A DNA stretch of 35,801 nt. It comes from Desulfovibrio sp. GTDB lineage: Bacteria > Desulfobacterota > Desulfovibrionia > Desulfovibrionales > Desulfovibrionaceae. The DNA is taken from contig JAFQNG010000041.1 in assembly GCA_017396005.1 (NCBI GenBank), positions 1 through 35,801 of the forward strand. The letters are read 5' to 3'. A program made the translations under genes and the position numbers. A model generated the notes under the pieces. That model had not been told where the DNA came from and made no database searches. It worked only from the letters and a program-made list of their open reading frames with translations. This document shows positions 1,924 through 17,555 of the stretch, piece after piece (position 1 is the stretch's first letter; every line of letters starts with the position of its first letter).

Positions 1924-3105
1924 TCACCCCCTGGGGCCGGATAAAAGCCGCCGGATGCTAGCCACCGCCTGTCTGGTGCGGTGCTCGTTTTCAATGAGGG
2001 CAAAGCGGACATATTCATCGCCGTAGTGGCCAAAGCCCAAGCCGGGAGATACTGCCACTTGAGCCTCGGTGAGCAGAAGCTTGGAAAATTCTACGGAACC
2101 CATTTTACGGAATTCTTCCGGGATACGTGCCCAGACAAACATGGTGGCCTTGGGTGCAGGCACCTCCCAGCCGATACGGTTGAGGCCTTCGATGAGCTTG
2201 TCGCGACGATCGCGATAGATATCGCGTATTTCGCTCACACATTCCTGAGGGCCGTTGAGGGCCACGGTGGCGGCTATCTGTATGGGTTGGAACATTCCAT
2301 AATCCATATAGCTCTTGATGCGGGCCAAGGCGTGAATAAGGCGCTTGTTGCCCACGCAGAAACCCACACGCCACCCGGGCATGGAATAGCTTTTGGAGAG
2401 GGTGTAGAATTCCACACCCACATCCTTGGCACCTGCCACCTGCAGGAAGCTGGGGGCCTCATAGCCATCAAAGACCAGGTCCGCATAAGCCAGATCATGG
2501 ACGACCCAAATTTTGTGTTCTTTGGCGAAATCCACTACACGGCGGAAGAACTCCAGATCGGTCACTTCCGTAGTAGGATTATGCGGGTAGCTGATGAAGA
2601 GCAGCTTGGGTTTGGGCCAGGCCTGGCGCATGGCCAGGGTCAGATCTTCAAAAAAATCACGGCCCGGGCCGATGGGCACCGTACGCATATCAGCCCCGGC
2701 AATAATGGGCGCGTACTGATGGATGGGGTAGGTAGGGTCCGGGGCCAGTACCACGTCTCCCGGGGCCAGCATGGCCAGAGCCAGATGGGTGAGCCCTTCC
2801 TTGGAACCCAGAGTGACTATGGCTTCGGATTCGGGGTCCAGATCCACGCCGAACTGACGGGCATAGCGGTCACAGACAGCCTTGCGCAGATTGGGGATGC
2901 CTCGAGACAGGGAATAGCGGTGGTTGACCGGCTTTTGTGCGGCTTCCACTAGCTTGTCCACCACATGGCTAGGTGTGGGGATATCAGGGTTGCCCATGCT
3001 GAAATCCACAATATCCACATTCTGTCGCCGCAGCTTCATTTTCAGTTCGCCCACTACGGCAAAAACATAGGGGGGCAGGCGTTGAATACGCGAAAACTCT
3101 TCCAT
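1924..3105 (-). CDS. Class I/II PLP aminotransferase, AlaC/LL-diaminopimelate aminotransferase type
   Basis: This is a 393-residue fold-type I aminotransferase. The PLP Lys is K238 in the motif [14 protein letters not shown]176 (SYPHNPTT) and D204 ([10 protein letters not shown]) hold the pyridoxal ring, and a C-terminal arginine binds the substrate carboxylate. The sequence style, [18 protein letters not shown] with [11 protein letters not shown], resembles AlaC/YfdZ alanine-synthesising transaminases and the DapL-related group. The substrate cannot be fixed from sequence. The gene is co-transcribed with homoserine dehydrogenase, so an aspartate-family role is equally possible. It is the first gene of a three-gene operon, and a candidate promoter lies at 3183-3212. 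The start is chosen as the first conserved Met. The AGATGCAAG upstream gives only a weak ribosome binding site. Confidence 0.9.
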
Positions 3106-3182
3106 CTTGCATCTCGCTTGTTTAGGACCCGGCTACCGCAGGAAGACGGCCGCGCACGGCAGCGCCCCGGGGTATGGCAGAC

Positions 3183-3212
3183 AACATAGCCAAGGGTGCG
3201 GCGTGTTGTAAA
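3183..3212 (-). promoter_or_regulatory. Candidate promoter for the aminotransferase-hom-yjbQ operon
   Basis: On the minus strand, TTTACA (3207-3212) and TATGTT (3183-3188) are separated by 18 bp in the 164 bp gap between glmS and the aminotransferase gene. The predicted leader is about 70 nt. I saw no amino-acid-run leader peptide and no clear attenuator in it. The call rests on box similarity only. Confidence 0.4.
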
Positions 3213-3269
3213 GGCGAAAACATGAGCAGCTATAGCCGACCACAAACCACAGGAGTACTGTACCGATTT

Positions 3270-5096
3270 TTATTCCACAGTCACACTCTTGGCCAGGTTT
3301 CTTGGCTGGTCTACATCCTTGCCGAGATAGTCAGCCATCTCATAGCTGAAGAGCTGCAGGGCTGGCAGAGCTGTAAAGGCAGAAAGCGGGGCAGGCAGAG
3401 ACGGAATGTCCCACCTGTCGTCCACATGCAGATCCACATGAGGATTGGTCAGTGCAATCACCTTGCCCTGTCTTGCCTGTACTTCAACAATGTTAGATTT
3501 GACCTTGGGAAAGAGGTCGTCATCCAGTGCCAGAGCAAAAGTAGGAAAGTCAGGGTCAATAAGGGCGATGGGGCCATGTTTCATCTCACCGGCCGAATAG
3601 CCTTCGGCATGGATGTAAGAAAGCTCCTTGAGCTTAAGCGCCCCTTCCAGAGCCAGGGCAAAACAGTGACCTCTGCCCAGGTAAAAAAAACTGGCCGCCT
3701 GCGCATAAATCCGCGAAAGCTGTCTGGCTCTTTCGTGCATGGACGGCAGAGCTTCTTCCAGCATGGCTGGAAGGTCATCAAGCAGGGCTATCTGCTTCTG
3801 GCAGGCAGAGGCATTCATCCTGGCAGAACGACCGGCCCAGTACAGGGCCATCATGGACAGCATAAGCATCTGGCTGCACATGGCCTTGGTGGAAGCCACG
3901 CTTATCTCTGGTCCGGCCTGGGTATAGATTATTGCAGAAGCCTCCCTTGCGATGGAAGAGCCTACTACATTGCACAGGCCAAGGACCGTCGTGCCCTGCT
4001 GGCGCGCCCGGCGCAGAGCCGCCAGAGTGTCGGCTGTTTCTCCGCTCTGGCTGATAACCAGCACCATATCATTCTTCCCGAGTAGCAGTCTTTCCCGATA
4101 GCGGAATTCAGAAGCTATCTCCACCTGAACAGGCACACCAGCCCAGTGCTCCAGTAAATGACGCCCCCAAAGCCCTGAGTGGTAGGATGTTCCGCAGGCA
4201 ACAATATGCAGACGTTCTGGTATGGGCAGACCATCCAGCTCCGGCAGGAGGATAGCCCTCTTACCCGGGGCTATGCGTCCGGTCAGTCCGTCACTGATAA
4301 CTCTGGGTTGCTCAAAGATTTCCTTGATCATGAAGTGTCGGTAACCACCTTTCTGTGCGGCTTGTATATCCCACTGTATGGTCTGCTCCTGACGAGTAAC
4401 AGGTTGCAGATCCTCAAGGCGCAGTATTTTGTAACTATTGGGCGTGGCCCGTATCAGTTCGCCATCTTCCAGAAAAATTACCTGACGGGTATACGGCAGA
4501 AAGGCAGGTATGTCTGAGGCCACAAAGTGTTCACCTGTGCCTACACCAAGGATGAGCGGGGCAGCCATACGCGCAGCGTAGATGACTTCGGGAGAGGCAG
4601 TTTCCATCAGACAAACGGCATAGGCCCCATGGGCTTCACGCAGCGCCGTCGCAAACGCCGACAGGATGTCCTGCCCTCCCCTGCGGTGATAGGAGATAAG
4701 ATTGACCAGTACCTCCGTGTCTGTTTCAGAGTGGAAACTATAACCGATGGCACTCAGGCGTGCCCTGATCTCCTGATAGTTTTCGATGATACCGTTATGC
4801 ACCAGAGCCAGTGTGCCGTCATTGCTTAGATGAGGATGCGCGTTACGCTCTGCAGGTATGCCGTGTGTAGCCCAGCGGGTATGCCCCATAGCACAGGTGG
4901 CGGTAGCCATGGGTTCCTGTGCCAGCTTTTCTTCTAGGGCTGCCAGTTTGCCCTTGGCCCGTACCACACACAGTCTGCCCTGCCATCCAAAGGCCACTCC
5001 GGCTGAATCATAGCCACGATACTCCAAGCGTCGCAGCCCTTCAACCACGACAGGAACTGCAGGCCTGTGCCCGGCATAACCGATGATTCCACACAT
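3270..5096 (-). CDS. glmS: Glutamine--fructose-6-phosphate aminotransferase (isomerizing)
   Basis: GlmS makes glucosamine-6-phosphate from fructose-6-phosphate and glutamine, the entry step to UDP-GlcNAc for peptidoglycan and LPS. The 608-residue length is standard. The nucleophile Cys2 follows the initiator Met (MCGIIGYAGH), the class II glutaminase domain covers about 1-220 (GHTRWATHG, HNGIIENY), and two SIS isomerase domains follow (ISQSGETADTLAALR; GRGHCFALALEGALKLKE), ending in the typical KSVTVE tail. The start is fixed because Cys2 must be N-terminal, and GGAG lies 7 nt upstream. The gene follows the ppiD-like gene by 22 bp and is probably co-transcribed with it. No glmS ribozyme is visible upstream, as expected outside Firmicutes. 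Confidence 0.98.
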   Translation of the reverse strand: MCGIIGYAGHRPAVPVVVEGLRRLEYRGYDSAGVAFGWQGRLCVVRAKGKLAALEEKLAQEPMATATCAMGHTRWATHGIPAERNAHPHLSNDGTLALVHNGIIENYQEIRARLSAIGYSFHSETDTEVLVNLISYHRRGGQDILSAFATALREAHGAYAVCLMETASPEVIYAARMAAPLILGVGTGEHFVASDIPAFLPYTRQVIFLEDGELIRATPNSYKILRLEDLQPVTRQEQTIQWDIQAAQKGGYRHFMIKEIFEQPRVISDGLTGRIAPGKRAILLPELDGLPIPERLHIVACGTSYHSGLWGRHLLEHWAGVPVQVEIASEFRYRERLLLGKNDMVLVISQSGETADTLAALRRARQQGTTVLGLCNVVGSSIAREASAIIYTQAGPEISVASTKAMCSQMLMLSMMALYWAGRSARMNASACQKQIALLDDLPAMLEEALPSMHERARQLSRIYAQAASFFYLGRGHCFALALEGALKLKELSYIHAEGYSAGEMKHGPIALIDPDFPTFALALDDDLFPKVKSNIVEVQARQGKVIALTNPHVDLHVDDRWDIPSLPAPLSAFTALPALQLFSYEMADYLGKDVDQPRNLAKSVTVE

Positions 5097-10763: not shown

Positions 10764-11771
10764 CTAAAACTCGCTGAAGCCGAAAATACTGTGCCCATGT
10801 ATCTCGCAGCTGACCTCCTGACCGGGTGACAGCACACCCTCCGGTAGAGATGGAAACTGCAAATGGACCAGTACGGACTGTGCACCAGAGACAGGTGCAT
10901 GCACTTCGCGTACTGTACCGTGCAGTGTCAGCTGCGGTATGGTGCTGCGCATAAGGGCGATATCGCCGGCTTTGATTTTACTGAAAGCTGCCAGAGGAAA
11001 TTCCGCAGTGACGCGCAGGGGTGCCGAGCCCCGTCTTTCAGGTAGTAGAACCATCACCGTATCTTCTGACAGCAGCATCTGCCCCCTGTGTGCTGGTATG
11101 CCGGCAATGCGGCCGGATACCGGGGCCAGCAGTACGTTATTGTTCTGGGCTTGACAGGTGATCACATGTAGCCAGGCCTGTCCTCCCGTCGGAATAAGAC
11201 TGTCTGCCATTGTCAGTCTCTGCCCGGATATGCCCCCACGACCTGCTCTAGCCAGGCTTGAGGCTTCATATTCATCCCTGGCCAAGCCCTTTTCCATACC
11301 GGCAGTCTGTTCCCGCTGCACAGCAGATGCGTAAGCTTCTGTTCCTACTGCTGCCTTGCCGCCCTGCATGTCCATATCCCGTCGTTGCAGCTGGGCCTGT
11401 ACATGCTGCAGCACCTTGGCTTCATAAATCTTGCGCAAACGTTCTTCACGCTCACGTGCAGACTCCTGCAAGCCTTCCTGGCTCTGGCCATAGCGGGACA
11501 GCTCCTCATGGCCTTTCACACTGCGTATCCTTGCCAGCTGCTGTCCCTGCTGTACTTTCTGGCCGTCACGCACGTCGATGGATTCCAGTATACCCGGCGA
11601 ATGCGGGGTCATGACATATATGGTTCCTGCAATCATGGCCTTAAGGCTATAAGATCTGCCCATCTCCAGCCATAACCAGACAAGTGCCACGCCAAGGGAA
11701 ATTACCAGCATGACGGTTATGATCAAAGAAAATGGGCCTGATTTTTTGCCGGGTACGGTTGTGTTTGCCAT
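10764..11771 (-). CDS. HlyD-family membrane-fusion (periplasmic adaptor) protein
   Basis: This is a 335-residue adaptor of the HlyD/EmrA type. One N-terminal membrane segment lies at about residues 15-36. The first half of a barrel-sandwich (lipoyl-like) domain follows (TPHSPGILESIDVRDGQKVQ), then a long charged helical hairpin (about 90-185, SQEGLQESAREREERLRKIY and onward), the second half-barrel (LLAPVSGRIAGIPAHRGQML) and a beta-barrel region. Such proteins bridge an inner-membrane exporter to an outer-membrane channel. No ABC, MFS or TolC-type partner is nearby, so the transported substrate is unknown. AGGA sits 11 nt before the ATG. Upstream, a perfect palindrome ATGTATACAT (11807-11816) overlaps the likely promoter. 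Confidence 0.82.
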   Translation of the reverse strand: MANTTVPGKKSGPFSLIITVMLVISLGVALVWLWLEMGRSYSLKAMIAGTIYVMTPHSPGILESIDVRDGQKVQQGQQLARIRSVKGHEELSRYGQSQEGLQESAREREERLRKIYEAKVLQHVQAQLQRRDMDMQGGKAAVGTEAYASAVQREQTAGMEKGLARDEYEASSLARAGRGGISGQRLTMADSLIPTGGQAWLHVITCQAQNNNVLLAPVSGRIAGIPAHRGQMLLSEDTVMVLLPERRGSAPLRVTAEFPLAAFSKIKAGDIALMRSTIPQLTLHGTVREVHAPVSGAQSVLVHLQFPSLPEGVLSPGQEVSCEIHGHSIFGFSEF

Positions 11772-13209: not shown

Positions 13210-13335
13210 CCTTTTGCATGGCGGTTCTTCTGGGATATGCCTCAAATATTTTCCGTAAACTACGCAGCAGCGGCCTTCTCTGCTTTTGCCTTCCGCTGCA
13301 GAATGGGATATGCAGGCTGTACCAAAGGAGAGATC

Positions 13336-14385
13336 ATGCAGTCGCATATTCGTTTTGACACTGACGCCCTGGAACTGCATCTGCTGGACCAGCGCCTGCT
13401 GCCCATGGAAGAAAGCTACTGTGTCTGTCACAATGTGGCAGGCATTGTCCGCGCTCTGCAGGAGATGGTTGTGCGCGGGGCCCCGGCCATTGGCGTTACT
13501 GCTGCCTGGGGCTGCGTACTGGCCGTGCGAGAGGCCATTTTCGAAAGCCACTGGTCAGAGCGACTGGAGGCCCTCATGGAATCCATTGCTGCCGCTCGTC
13601 CTACGGCGGTCAATCTGCGCTGGGCTGTGGAGCGCATGCGCCGATGCCGCCAGCAGGCTGCCGATGCGGAGGCCGGCGACCTGCTGGAGCTCTTCATGGC
13701 CGAAGCCCGGGCTATACAGGATGAAGACGTGGCCGCCTGTAAAGCCATAGGACGCTTTGGCGCAGACTGTCTGGACGATGGAGACACTGTGCTGACCCAT
13801 TGCAATGCCGGCGCCCTGGCCACGGCAGGCTACGGTACTGCCTTGGGCGTCATTCGTGGCGCAGTGGAACAGGGAAAACGCATCCACGTCATTGCTGATG
13901 AAACACGCCCCTTCCTGCAAGGCGCACGCCTCACTGCCTGGGAGCTGCAACAGGATGCCATCCCGGTGACCGTGGCCTGTGACAATGCCTGTGCCCTGCT
14001 CATGCACAGGGGTATGATACAGAAGGTGGTAGTGGGGGCAGACCGCATTGCCGCCAACGGTGATGCTGCCAATAAGATAGGCACCTATGGTGTAGCCCTT
14101 CTGGCACACCATTTCCATATCCCCTTTTATGTGGCTGCGCCTCTGTCCACCCTTGATACGGCCACACCTGACGGCGCAGCCATCCCCATTGAAGAGCGTC
14201 CGGCGCAGGAGGTAACCTGCCTGACCGGCCAACCGGTAAGCCCTGACGGTGTGCCGGTGTACAACTTTGCCTTTGACGTGACACCGGCGCAATATATCAG
14301 CGGCATAATTACTGAAGCAGGTGTGCTTCATGCCCCGTACGGTCCGGCCATCGCCAGGGTCTTGCAGGAGGCCCGTCCAGCATGA
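13336..14385 (+). CDS. mtnA: S-methyl-5-thioribose-1-phosphate isomerase
   Basis: MtnA converts methylthioribose-1-phosphate to methylthioribulose-1-phosphate in 5'-methylthioadenosine salvage. The 349-residue length matches the family. Substrate-binding RGAPAIG lies at 47-53, and the catalytic pair is Cys156 ([18 protein letters not shown]) and Asp236 ([20 protein letters not shown]), close to B. subtilis Cys160/Asp240. The frame is open upstream to 13237, but AAAGGAG lies 5 nt before the ATG at 13336 and homologous sequence begins there. The leader contains a 7 bp hairpin, GCAGCGG (13267-13273) with CCGCTGC (13293-13299). The gene overlaps the next one by 4 bp (ATGA). Other mtn genes are not in the window. 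Confidence 0.95.
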
Positions 14386-16277
14386 CACGTATGCTTCTGC
14401 TGGCCGAAGGCGCAACAGCCGTCGAGCCTGAGACTGACGAACTGGTCGTGCACTGGGAAGGCCAGGCGGTGCCTGCAGGATATATTTCCCTGCCTTCCTG
14501 TATGGGGAAAGACCTGCTGCACATTAGGACAGAGCATGCTGCCTGGGCCTGGGATATGGCCCGGCTGAGAGTTGACGGGCAGGAGGTGCAGGAGCACCTC
14601 AAGGCCGGGGCAAGCCTTTCCATGTGGTGGTGTTCGCTGCTCTACGAGCGCCATCCCAAGATGACACCCCATCTTTATACCATCTATAAACTGCGCGCCC
14701 TGGAACGCCTGCTGGATGCGAAGGGGGTTACACATCTGCGTCTGGCAGGCGGGGACAGGCGTCTGCGTCACACCCTGTCCCGCCTGTGCTCAAGCTCGGG
14801 GCGCAAGTTTGTCTTCCTGGGCCCTGAACAGGTGTCCGTCAAGGGGGCATTTGTCAGACGTCTCTATGCGGCCTGCCCTGCCCCATTGCGTGCGGGCCTG
14901 CGCTATGTGCACTGGTGGTGGACAGTGCGCCGCAGACTGCCGCCCTGCCGCAGCCTGCCTCCTGCATCTGAGCAGCAGAAGACAGCCACCATTGCCACCT
15001 ATTTCCCCAATGTGGATATGGCGGCCCTCAAAGCAGGACGCTTCCGTTCCCGCTACTGGGAGAATCTGCACCATGCGCTTAACGAACAGGCTGCTCGGGA
15101 AGGGGCGGCCGGGCATTTCGTACGATGGCTTTTTATCCGCTTCCCCGCACCACAGCTGGATTTTGCACAATGTCTGGCCGCGCGTGACAGCTTTCGTCAG
15201 ACCGGTAAAGACGGTCTCTCCTTCCATTATCTGGAAGAATTTTTACAACATGGCGATCTTTGGGCGGCTCTCCGGCGTTTTGTCCGTCTGTGCCTGCGCT
15301 CCTGGCGCCTGCAAAAAACAGTGCTTGCGGCCTGCTGTTTTACAGGTTCGCACTTGAATTTTCAGGAATATGTCAAGGACGATTGGGCAGAATCCTTCCG
15401 AGGCTGGCGTGGACTGGAACGCTGCCTGCAATACCGAGCCTGTACGGCCTATGCACGTCTTGCAGGGCCGCAACGCTGGACACTGTTCCCGCTGGAAAAC
15501 TGTCCCTGGGAGCGCATGCTGAGCCATGCCATACATGAGACCGGGCACGGCCCGGTGCTGGGGGCCCAGCACTCCACCATCCGGCCTACGGATTTTCGCT
15601 ACTTTGATGATCCACGCGCCTTCATGACATCAGACTGCCTGGCCTTTCAGCCGGATGCCATTGGCGGCAATGGTGCCTCAGCCTGCAGTCAGTGGCTGGC
15701 AGCCGGTCTGCCACCGCAGCGCCTTATACCTGTTGAAGCTCTGCGCTACCTCTACCTGGCCTCCTCTGACCCTGCCCCGGCTCAGCGCTCTGCTGCGGGT
15801 GCTCCTAGCCTGCTGGTGCTGACCAGCTTTTTCAAGGATGAAACAGAAGCGCATCTGCGCCTGCTGGCGCAGACCGTAAAAGCTGGTCTCTTGCAGGGCT
15901 GGTCTGTTACCGTCAAGCCGCACCCCTATCTGCCGGTGGCAGAACATCTGCAGCAGCTGCTGGGCGCACAGGCCAAAGATATCACACTGGCTGACGGTCC
16001 CATGAGTGACTATCTGCGGTCGGGCGTAACGGTCTGGGGCTCCAACTCTACCACAGCAGCGCTGGAGGCTGCCATCAAAGGGCTGCCTGTCATGGTCATG
16101 GCCCCCACAGACGATTTTGACCTCTGCCCCATACAGGATGTGCCCGGCCTTGCCCGCACAGTCTGCCTTGACGACGTGCGCCGTGCCCTGCCGGGGCTCG
16201 TGCCCTTGGACATAACCGACGACTATCTGTACCTGGACGCTGCCCTGCCCCGCTGGCGGCACTGGCTGGGGGTATAG
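14382..16277 (+). CDS. Surface carbohydrate biosynthesis protein, TIGR04326-like
   Basis: This is a 631-residue protein. Its organisation resembles the TIGR04326 family, founded on a Leptospira O-antigen-locus protein. It has an N-terminal region with [12 protein letters not shown] and [10 protein letters not shown], a basic middle section, and a C-terminal glycosyltransferase-B-like half with [18 protein letters not shown], the phosphosugar-type motif VKPHPYLP, and [20 protein letters not shown]. The last resembles the nucleotide-sugar-binding side of CDP-glycerol/sialyl-type transferases. A role in surface glycan assembly is inferred and the activity is unknown. No signal peptide is present, so the protein is cytoplasmic. 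The ATG overlaps the mtnA stop (ATGA), with AGGAGG 10 nt upstream, which indicates coupled translation with mtnA. The family call is from memory of motifs. Confidence 0.65.
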
Positions 16278-16319: not shown

Positions 16320-17555
16320 ATGATCTGCCTCTCCTTTGCCCATCTGTCTCTGCCCGTATACCTGCGAGGCTGCACATCCCTGCCGCAGGAGATCCAGAAT
16401 TTTTTTGCAGCCTGGCCTTTCACGACAATACAGCCAGCAAGGGAGTATCCTCATGGTCCAAGCCTGACTATGGGTGCAGATGCCAAGGGTCGTGCTCTGT
16501 ATACCGTTGACGCGCCCTGGCTGCCCACACATTTTCAGGAAGACAGTCTGGCCTGTGCTCTGTGCAATCTCTCTATAGAAATGATCATCGCAGTATGCCG
16601 CGAGCACGGGCTGCTCTGCCTGCACGCGGCTGCGCTGCGTATGGGCAGGCATATGCCCCTCCTGCTGGGCAGCAATGGCGCGGGCAAGAGCAGCCTGGCG
16701 GCGCGCCTCATGGCCAACGGACATACAGGTTACGGTGACGACCTTGTGGGCATGAGCGGACAGGGCACTGCCCTTTCCTTCGGCATTGCCCCGCGTCTGC
16801 GCCTGCCCCTGCCGCCCTCCCCCACTCTGGCCGCTTTTGTCCATAGCTGCCAGGGCATCAGCGATGCCCGCTACTGCTACCTTGACCCGGCGTCCGTAGC
16901 TCTGGCCCGCCACGGAGAGGAAAAGCCTGTCAGTCACTGCATTCTTTTGCAGCGCCGTCAGGGGGCCGATGCCCGCTTACGCCCTCTCCCTCCACAGACA
17001 GCACTCCTGCGCTTGCTGCCGCGTTATATCATGCAGTGTGGAGAGGCCGCCCCTCTGCTGCAGCAGGCCGCGGCCCTGGCAGGGCGTCTGCCTGTGCTGC
17101 TCCTCCGCTATGACAGTGTGGATGCGGCGGCCGCCTGCCTGGAGCAGTATCTGGAGCTGTATGCTCCCATTGACCATGAAAACGCCCCCTGCATCGCGCT
17201 GTCAGAGGTCAGGCAAGCGGGTACCGGCCATGTGCCACTGCCGACAGGAAGAGGCGTCAGAAGGCGCCGTCCGGGAAAGGCCCCGGCACGTCAGCGCTGG
17301 CAGCAGCGCTCTGGTGTGCGCGTGCTCCGACACGGTAGGCAGCTTTTCCTGTCAGCCCCTGCCGGCAGTGCTCTGCATCGCCTTAATCCGCTGGGACAGG
17401 CCGTCTGGAGCCTGCTGGAAAGCCCTCTCAGCATGGCAGAAGCTGCAGGCTTGCTGGCCGAGGCCTTTCCAGGAACGGGCCGTGAACGCATCAGAAAGGA
17501 TACAGCCCGGCTGTTTCAGGACTTGTGCCTGGCCGGGCTGATTGTGGCTGTATAG
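16320..17555 (+). CDS. HPr-kinase-like / PqqD-like fusion protein
   Basis: This is a 411-residue two-domain protein. Residues about 90-290 resemble the HPr kinase/phosphorylase C-terminal fold. A P-loop GSNGAGKSS (117-125, Lys123) is preceded by LHAAALRM and followed by NGHTGYGDD (Asp140, Asp141), in the place of the GH-x-LVADD catalytic segment. A basic Arg-rich linker follows (about 305-330). Residues about 330-411 form a PqqD-like winged-helix domain (ALHRLNPLGQAVWSLLESP, then a C-terminal DLCLAGLI). PqqD domains bind leader peptides of ribosomal peptides and deliver them to modifying enzymes. HprK-related kinases with PqqD-type partners are known as small systems of unknown product. No peptide precursor, radical-SAM partner or HPr is nearby, and no function should be assumed. 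It is convergent with the DUF2333 gene. Confidence 0.78.
   Translation: MICLSFAHLSLPVYLRGCTSLPQEIQNFFAAWPFTTIQPAREYPHGPSLTMGADAKGRALYTVDAPWLPTHFQEDSLACALCNLSIEMIIAVCREHGLLCLHAAALRMGRHMPLLLGSNGAGKSSLAARLMANGHTGYGDDLVGMSGQGTALSFGIAPRLRLPLPPSPTLAAFVHSCQGISDARYCYLDPASVALARHGEEKPVSHCILLQRRQGADARLRPLPPQTALLRLLPRYIMQCGEAAPLLQQAAALAGRLPVLLLRYDSVDAAAACLEQYLELYAPIDHENAPCIALSEVRQAGTGHVPLPTGRGVRRRRPGKAPARQRWQQRSGVRVLRHGRQLFLSAPAGSALHRLNPLGQAVWSLLESPLSMAEAAGLLAEAFPGTGRERIRKDTARLFQDLCLAGLIVAV

Follow-up and report, generated by a model that had tools for sequence, protein, structure and literature searches.

The window analyzed here, a stretch of 35,801 nucleotides from Desulfovibrio sp. (contig JAFQNG010000041.1 of assembly GCA_017396005.1), harbors a gene encoding a 411-aa protein, termed P0001, in which an HprK-like kinase is joined to a PqqD (RRE) domain. 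Its neighbors are mtnA, a gene for a TIGR04326 carbohydrate protein termed P0002 (718 bits), DUF2333, ilvD, a gene for a flippase-type protein, and thiG/thiH/thiF. The features of the fusion gene are the following:

16320..17555, + strand: HprK-like kinase / PqqD (RRE) fusion P0001, 411 aa (open reading frame and domain profiles)
16623..16625, + strand: H102, aligned with the His preceding the HprK P-loop (alignment)
16668..16691, + strand: P-loop GSNGAGKS, residues 117-124 (alignment)
16737..16742, + strand: D140-D141, aligned with the HprK 'DD' pair (alignment)
16791..16814, + strand: family signature PRLRLPLP, residues 158-165 (family alignment)
17187..17354, + strand: Arg-rich linker of variable length, about residues 290-345 (sequence and the A4 family alignment)
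17355..17543, + strand: PqqD/RRE winged helix, residues 346-408 (PF05402 and profiles of structural relatives)

The fusion protein and its distribution

The PqqD-like domain and the Arg-rich linker of the original prediction are both present, the former with a PF05402 score of 33.9 bits over residues 346-408 against a cut-off of 23.4. PF05402 matches 19 of the 21 sequences in A4, the alignment and profile of P0001 homologs, at E<=1e-3. The N-terminal half falls short of every curated HprK cut-off, with 30.3 bits (E 2.2e-7) against 200 for TIGR04352 (HprK-related kinase A), 16.8 bits (E 0.005) against 33.3 for PF07475, 17.9 bits against 200 for TIGR04355 (GAK system HprK-related kinase B), and 13 bits against 240 for TIGR00679 (HPr kinase/phosphorylase). 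Yet TIGR04352 is matched by 20 of the 21 A4 members at E<=1e-3, and the A4 profile finds the solved HPr kinases 1jb1, 2qmh, and 3tqf at 1.7e-4 to 1.8e-4. In a gap-free alignment to 1jb1, H102, the G-x4-GKS motif, and D140-D141 stand in the HprK register, and A4 shows no variation at H102, G122, K123, D140, D141, or residues 158-163 (PRLRLP). Judged by its sequence, this half of P0001 is an HprK-like P-loop domain of divergent type, in line with the HprK-type assignment made originally.

The 20 window proteins that we scanned include no RiPP cyclase or peptidase (PF00733, the Asn-synthase-like cyclase, is absent), and a six-frame regular-expression search of the window for the leader described below gave no match. 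This agrees with the earlier statement that precursor and other RiPP genes are missing nearby, and ThiH (451 bits) is, as had been stated, the sole radical-SAM protein among the scanned proteins. An HlyD-like membrane-fusion protein is encoded at window positions 10764-11771, and a transporter was not found among the scanned neighboring proteins.

That the two halves belong to one real gene is borne out by full-length fused homologs, detected with a nine-row profile, in 32 of 288 genomes of the family, its own included, and in 5 of 44 genera; the fusion and leader searches of these 288 genomes scored part of the first-look candidates, such that misses are possible. P0001 alone, used as a query against the genome contigs, gave no match. 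Within a phylum sample of 297 genomes, the full fusion occurs in three: the window genome (G000), G126, and G558, the last from a different family. The other 29 matching genomes of this sample have partial matches only, either to the kinase or to the PqqD part. A collection of named organisms yielded 21 loci, including Desulfovibrio piger (two strains), Mailhella, and Desulfobulbus (two), together with the Alphaproteobacteria Falsigemmobacter, Devosia, a Rhodospirillaceae bacterium, and an unfused relative (L222). Among 289 alphaproteobacterial genomes, 23 match at E<=1e-20; some of these genes are fused, and others have a PqqD match directly after the kinase (G640, G719). Six plasmids, from Paracoccus (4) and Shinella (2), carry the fusion under the annotation 'PqqD family protein'. 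Of the 52 rows in a tree of the kinase region (midpoint-rooted for drawing only), those from Desulfovibrionaceae and Desulfobulbus share one side of a branch (100/99), and the one nearest to the window is that of G174 (L139; 100/99).

Several other origins and roles were considered and set aside. A phage origin is rejected, given that phages contain no match to the fusion and that viral contigs, searched with one degenerate pattern, contain no relative. An anti-phage role is rejected as well, with no PADLOC model matching at E<=0.01. In-frame TGA codons in G152, G159, and G212 are ordinary stops at the frame end and not selenocysteine codons. Membership of the GAK system is likewise rejected: weak HprK matches in G142 and G023 (L069, L070) fall outside the cluster of the fusion family, and L070 presumably resembles GAK genes.

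A Tat-type repeat protein encoded beside the fusion

Relatives of P0001 have a small gene upstream of the fusion, in the same orientation and no more than ~1.6 kb away; it was found in 32 of 33 loci (by regular expression in 30, by reading in L068, and by profile and reading in G174; genes in GC-rich loci were called by codon scores). The one locus lacking a linked partner is the window itself. The partner begins with a Tat-like signal containing a YxxP motif, followed by an A-x-A site and a Ser/Thr-Arg repeat tail. The consensus of 19 leaders, in which Y and P are invariant, is approximately RRxxLAGLAAAGxxYxAPxLxxxNEAxA; the L068 leader has no twin Arg. The tails are basic and of low complexity, as in RPSRRSRPSR, RYTRPTRYTRPT, and YSRDGRRHSRDG. 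Six loci (L066, L145, L146, L148, L150, and L156) contain two such genes in tandem.

Protein clustering of the 33 loci places the pair in several unrelated neighborhoods. It is followed by truB-rpsO-pnp in ten loci and by tuf-secE in four, with other genes elsewhere; one member of each set was verified by Pfam. The repeat gene and kinase stand directly upstream of truB-rpsO-pnp in L066 and L145-L153, and of tuf-secE in L140, L141, L143, and L144. Both sets are core translation genes and are probably highly expressed.

Searched with a profile of the leader, every one of the 32 fusion genomes of the family gives a best match at E<=8.7e-14. Across the 256 family genomes devoid of the fusion, the best leader match is 8.4e-5; weak matches (8.4e-5 to 0.0092) occur in 32 of them, and the remaining 224 have none at 0.01. 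Of the 32 fusion genomes, 16 contributed rows to the profile, and the leaders of two more are identical to a profile sequence. Neither applies to the remaining 14, although near copies occur among them, and YxxP is present in 14 of 14. In the 297 phylum genomes, the leader is found at E<=1e-4 in exactly G000, G126, and G558, the full-fusion genomes, of which G126 and G558 contributed rows to the profile. These genomes do not count as independent events, because the lineages are related and the profile rows derive mostly from fusion loci.

Each of the 16 alphaproteobacterial loci inspected likewise has a leader-type gene with the kinase (ten by a regular expression for an aromatic residue plus P; L218, L220, and L222; L216 by eye; Shinella and Paracoccus), and 11 of the 23 matching alphaproteobacterial genomes were looked at. 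At L222 (6841-7954), apparently three leader/repeat genes precede the unfused kinase, the first with a repeat frame that seems shifted, and a PqqD match lies ~30 kb away on the same contig. At L161 (7351-8843), separate PqqD-like and HprK-like genes have next to them a called peptide of 59 aa that begins with an RRRIL...VAPLVLL leader, perhaps one of the same general type with no repeat tail. Unlinked His/Pro/Arg-rich Tat-type proteins in the kinase-bearing genomes G070 (contig C78, L199) and G236 (contig C107, L200) were set aside, as they have no YxxP and few Ser; they possibly represent an unrelated metal-binding export protein.

The window genome has one strong leader match, located on a contig other than that of the fusion:

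4885-5250 of contig C84 of G000 (locus L196), + strand: proposed substrate gene, 121 aa (leader profile)

An AAGGAG sequence lies shortly upstream of its ATG, and a terminator-like hairpin follows the stop codon, the latter being weak evidence (1 found against 0.9 expected in shuffles). The product has the leader RRRVLLGALALTGMAYVAPVLLTPNEAEA and a tail of 77 residues, with 31 Arg, 16 Ser, a net charge of about +28, and seven SRPS units spaced 10-11 residues apart. The sister genome G174 has the repeat gene followed in order by the fusion, DUF2333, and grpE. In G000, the fusion and DUF2333 are on contig C6 and the repeat gene adjoins grpE (PF01025, 144 bits) on C84; therefore, the pair was apparently split by a rearrangement in which both halves were retained. 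The separation may also be a misassembly of the draft, which is fragmented (100 contigs, 85.6% complete).

The original prediction regarded P0001 as a self-contained peptide- or protein-phosphorylating module. The phosphorylating module stands, on sequence grounds, whereas 'self-contained' is unsupported, because the partner gene co-occurs with the fusion in every fusion genome of the family. An unlinked small peptide co-occurring with the fusion had been proposed as the object of a neighborhood comparison, and the leader gene, unlinked in G000, fits this proposal.

Predicted leader recognition, phosphorylation, and export

The best solved relatives of the fused RRE are those of lasso peptide systems, TfuB1 (3.1e-9) and TbiB1 (1.7e-7), followed by LppB (9.4e-5). 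In LppB, the Tyr of the leader YxxP is held by a hydrogen bond to D70, and the kink at Pro is fixed by N33 (PMC13381572). P0001 D394 aligns with D70 and N356 with N33. Among 20 family members, the Tyr-holding position is occupied by D in 17, E in 2, and G in 1 (L220), and the Pro-holding position by N in 12, D in 4, T in 3, and G in 1. The best leader match per fusion genome contains YxxP in 32 of 32 and RR in 31 of 32 cases, a count that is not fully independent, because leaders of this kind had served to build the profile. A control set of 20 different RR-type stretches, weakly matched by the leader profile in the family, has YxxP in none and [Y/W]xxP in one (L265, with W-x-x-P further along). 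The Falsigemmobacter leader has W-A-A-P in place of YxxP, consistent with the published [Y/W]xxP motif. The PqqD/RRE domain is thus predicted to bind a Y-x-x-P-x-[hydrophobic] motif that lies within a twin-arginine signal peptide.

Of the 584 Ser/Thr in 43 distinct tails, 383 directly precede an Arg, as compared to 157.6 ± 9.6 in shuffled tails (the highest of 500 shuffles being 181), a count that shows ordered units and not a level of significance, because the tails are related. It omits the alphaproteobacterial tails of the ten-locus regular-expression set, Shinella, Paracoccus, L222, and the unlinked extra copies in G205 and G157. Arg preceding Ser/Thr is at chance level (148 vs 157). Some tails depart from this pattern: the kinase-nearest proteins of L145-L148 and L150 have 2 or 3 [ST]R units, L220 has 3, the L142 tail contains Lys/His instead of Arg, and the L243 tail has hardly any Ser/Thr. 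In several alphaproteobacterial tails, Gly replaces Arg (PSGPSG, SGGSGG) and Ser is retained, suggesting that the hydroxyl is the target. The HprK-like domain would accordingly be expected to use ATP for phosphorylating repeat hydroxyls, probably those of Ser/Thr preceding Arg.

The fusion, its conserved catalytic residues, the leader YxxP, the order of the repeats, the co-occurrence across genomes, and TatC are all directly visible in the sequences. Together they favor, with a probability of roughly 0.72, a reading of P0001 as a peptide kinase that carries a substrate-recognition domain of its own and acts on the Tat-signal Ser/Thr-Arg repeat protein. The substrate in G000 would be the 121-aa C84 product, and in the relatives the product of the gene just upstream of the fusion.

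A less probable alternative, to which we give about one chance in five, is that the same leader protein is recognized for a chemistry other than phosphorylation of the repeat Ser/Thr, for example at a single site near the leader, as a polyphosphate chain on one Ser, or with phosphorylation as an intermediate step. Multi-site phosphorylation is a leap, because the known relatives act on a single Ser: the HprK-like BsfK phosphorylates Ser3 of its precursor with the aid of the RRE BsfB1 and is strictly regioselective (PMC10368454), and LppK places several phosphates on one Ser, S3, of LppA, the leader YxxP of which binds the RRE LppB (PMC13381572). The PRLRLPLP signature, for which phosphorylation of the repeats does not account, also speaks for another chemistry. 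Against it, the tails on reading share no single Ser position, and repeated Ser/Thr is their common feature.

That the kinase and the repeat protein are neighbors by inheritance only, with HPr, a sugar, or an unrelated protein as the true substrate, appears improbable. The two genes are indeed unlinked in the window, but both were retained after their separation in G000, the pair is kept in the unrelated neighborhoods described above as well as in Desulfobulbus and the 16 alphaproteobacterial loci, and the fused RRE has the YxxP-binding residues.

With respect to the export of the putative peptide kinase substrate, G000 encodes TatC (240 bits), and the leaders combine the twin Arg with A-x-A in their alignment. 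The Pfam TAT model matches one of 10 proteins scanned, below its cut-off. PF13471, the lasso B2 leader peptidase, exceeds its cut-off in one of the 32 fusion genomes, which is not G000, and reaches E<=1e-3 in two. Tat plus signal peptidase is the simplest export route suggested by these features; the modified protein would exit by Tat and be cut at A-x-A.

In Alphaproteobacteria, including Shinella and Paracoccus, the gene for an S8 subtilase-type protein precedes the repeat gene; this protein carries a Tat leader of the type described above (Y/WxxP) along with a Ser-rich stretch, and may itself be a substrate or a maturation protease:

L235 (Shinella), 3037-4374: S8 subtilase-type protein
L236, 2951-4219: S8 subtilase-type protein
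L216, 5280-6569: S8 subtilase-type protein (by eye only)

A sigma-factor gene lies on the other side in Shinella and Paracoccus, and Shinella has a weak zf-HC2 match (21.5 vs 22.2 bits) beside the repeat-gene locus.

Relation to known systems and to the upstream genes

A kinase, an RRE, and a YxxP precursor are already known from the Bsf lasso peptides (PMC10368454) and the linear polyphosphorylated peptides, or LPPs (PMC13381572). The LPP system (LppA/LppK/LppB/LppS/LppD/LppN) has, as do the fusion loci by sequence, an HprK-like kinase, an RRE, a linear precursor whose leader contains YxxP, and no cyclase, and a conserved Asp of the fusion family is the one aligned with LppB D70. LPPs differ in having a discrete RRE, whereas kinase and RRE are one protein here, and in having the leader YxxPxVLxHQxIxFETxxS as opposed to the Tat-type YxAPxLxxxNEAxA. 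They also have an SpI peptidase, a transporter, and an NTP transferase nearby, whereas our scan of 20 window proteins turned up neither an SpI peptidase nor an LppD-like transporter nor a nucleotidyltransferase. The LPP authors describe these products as restricted to Bacillota, in contrast to the Desulfovibrionaceae, Desulfobulbus, and Alphaproteobacteria that host the fusion. The core in our case consists of Ser/Thr-Arg repeats. Phosphorylated lasso peptides of the Bsf and paeninodin type share the HprK-like kinase with an RRE, the kinase motif H-G-G-G-K-S-D-D, and, in BsfA, a YxxPxL leader (PMC10368454, PMC8498205). A lasso peptide cluster is nonetheless rejected, as the B2 peptidase is missing in 31 of the 32 fusion genomes and the scanned window proteins lack a cyclase.

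New features are the single kinase-RRE protein, a leader that doubles as a signal of Tat type, a core of repeats offering many possible sites, the lack of other LPP or lasso genes seen beside the pair, and the occurrence in other phyla. Among the titles and abstracts listed by searches of the open-licence PMC literature, none describes the fusion kinase/repeat-protein pair.

Eukaryotic SR proteins have Arg-Ser repeat tails and dedicated SR protein kinases. The dedicated kinase and the Arg-Ser repeat tails are common to both cases, whereas the kinase folds are unrelated, and the substrate here appears to be exported while SR substrates are nuclear. By analogy, this suggests a bacterial counterpart of SR-repeat phosphorylation. 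A broader proposal, which we hold tentatively and at slightly below even odds, is that of a widespread SR-protein/SR-kinase analogue, in which an HprK-fold kinase with an RRE would phosphorylate many Ser/Thr-Arg units, the leader would serve both as RRE dock and as Tat signal, and a strongly basic peptide would become a near-neutral, exported phospho-polyampholyte at the cell surface. The role of the product as a phosphorylated Arg-Ser polyampholyte at the surface is a guess. Another short repeat protein with dedicated modifying enzymes is that of the His-Xaa-Ser system, the Hxs enzymes of which are radical SAM proteins; one of our repeat proteins scores 14.1 bits against 65 for NF038309 (HxsA3).

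An enzyme annotated in the plasmid records found only as a 'PqqD family protein' thus gains a definite candidate substrate, across Desulfovibrio (D. piger among them), Desulfobulbus, and Alphaproteobacteria. If the proposed activity is correct, then phosphorylated RiPP-like products occur outside lasso peptides and the LPPs of Bacillota, a Tat signal can accommodate an RRE motif such that one leader serves modification and export, and exported bacterial proteins carry multi-site Ser phosphorylation adjacent to Arg.

The tie to the surface carbohydrate gene in the original prediction, by which P0001 would be a functional partner of P0002, has a spacing of 42 bp on the same strand in its favor but is rejected by genome comparison as having next to no chance of being correct, because genus neighbors lacking the fusion retain the mtnA-P0002 pair, the fusion and P0002 lie on different contigs in G126 and G003, and, in a 149-genome sample with nine full-length fusions, a strong P0002 homolog accompanies three and a weak one is found in G035 (9.9e-5), with linkage in the window only. 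The mtnA and TIGR04326 genes (window 13237-16277) form a conserved pair in the genus, also present in L073, L074, L075, L076, and L078; it is an unusual couple, placing methionine salvage beside surface carbohydrate synthesis.
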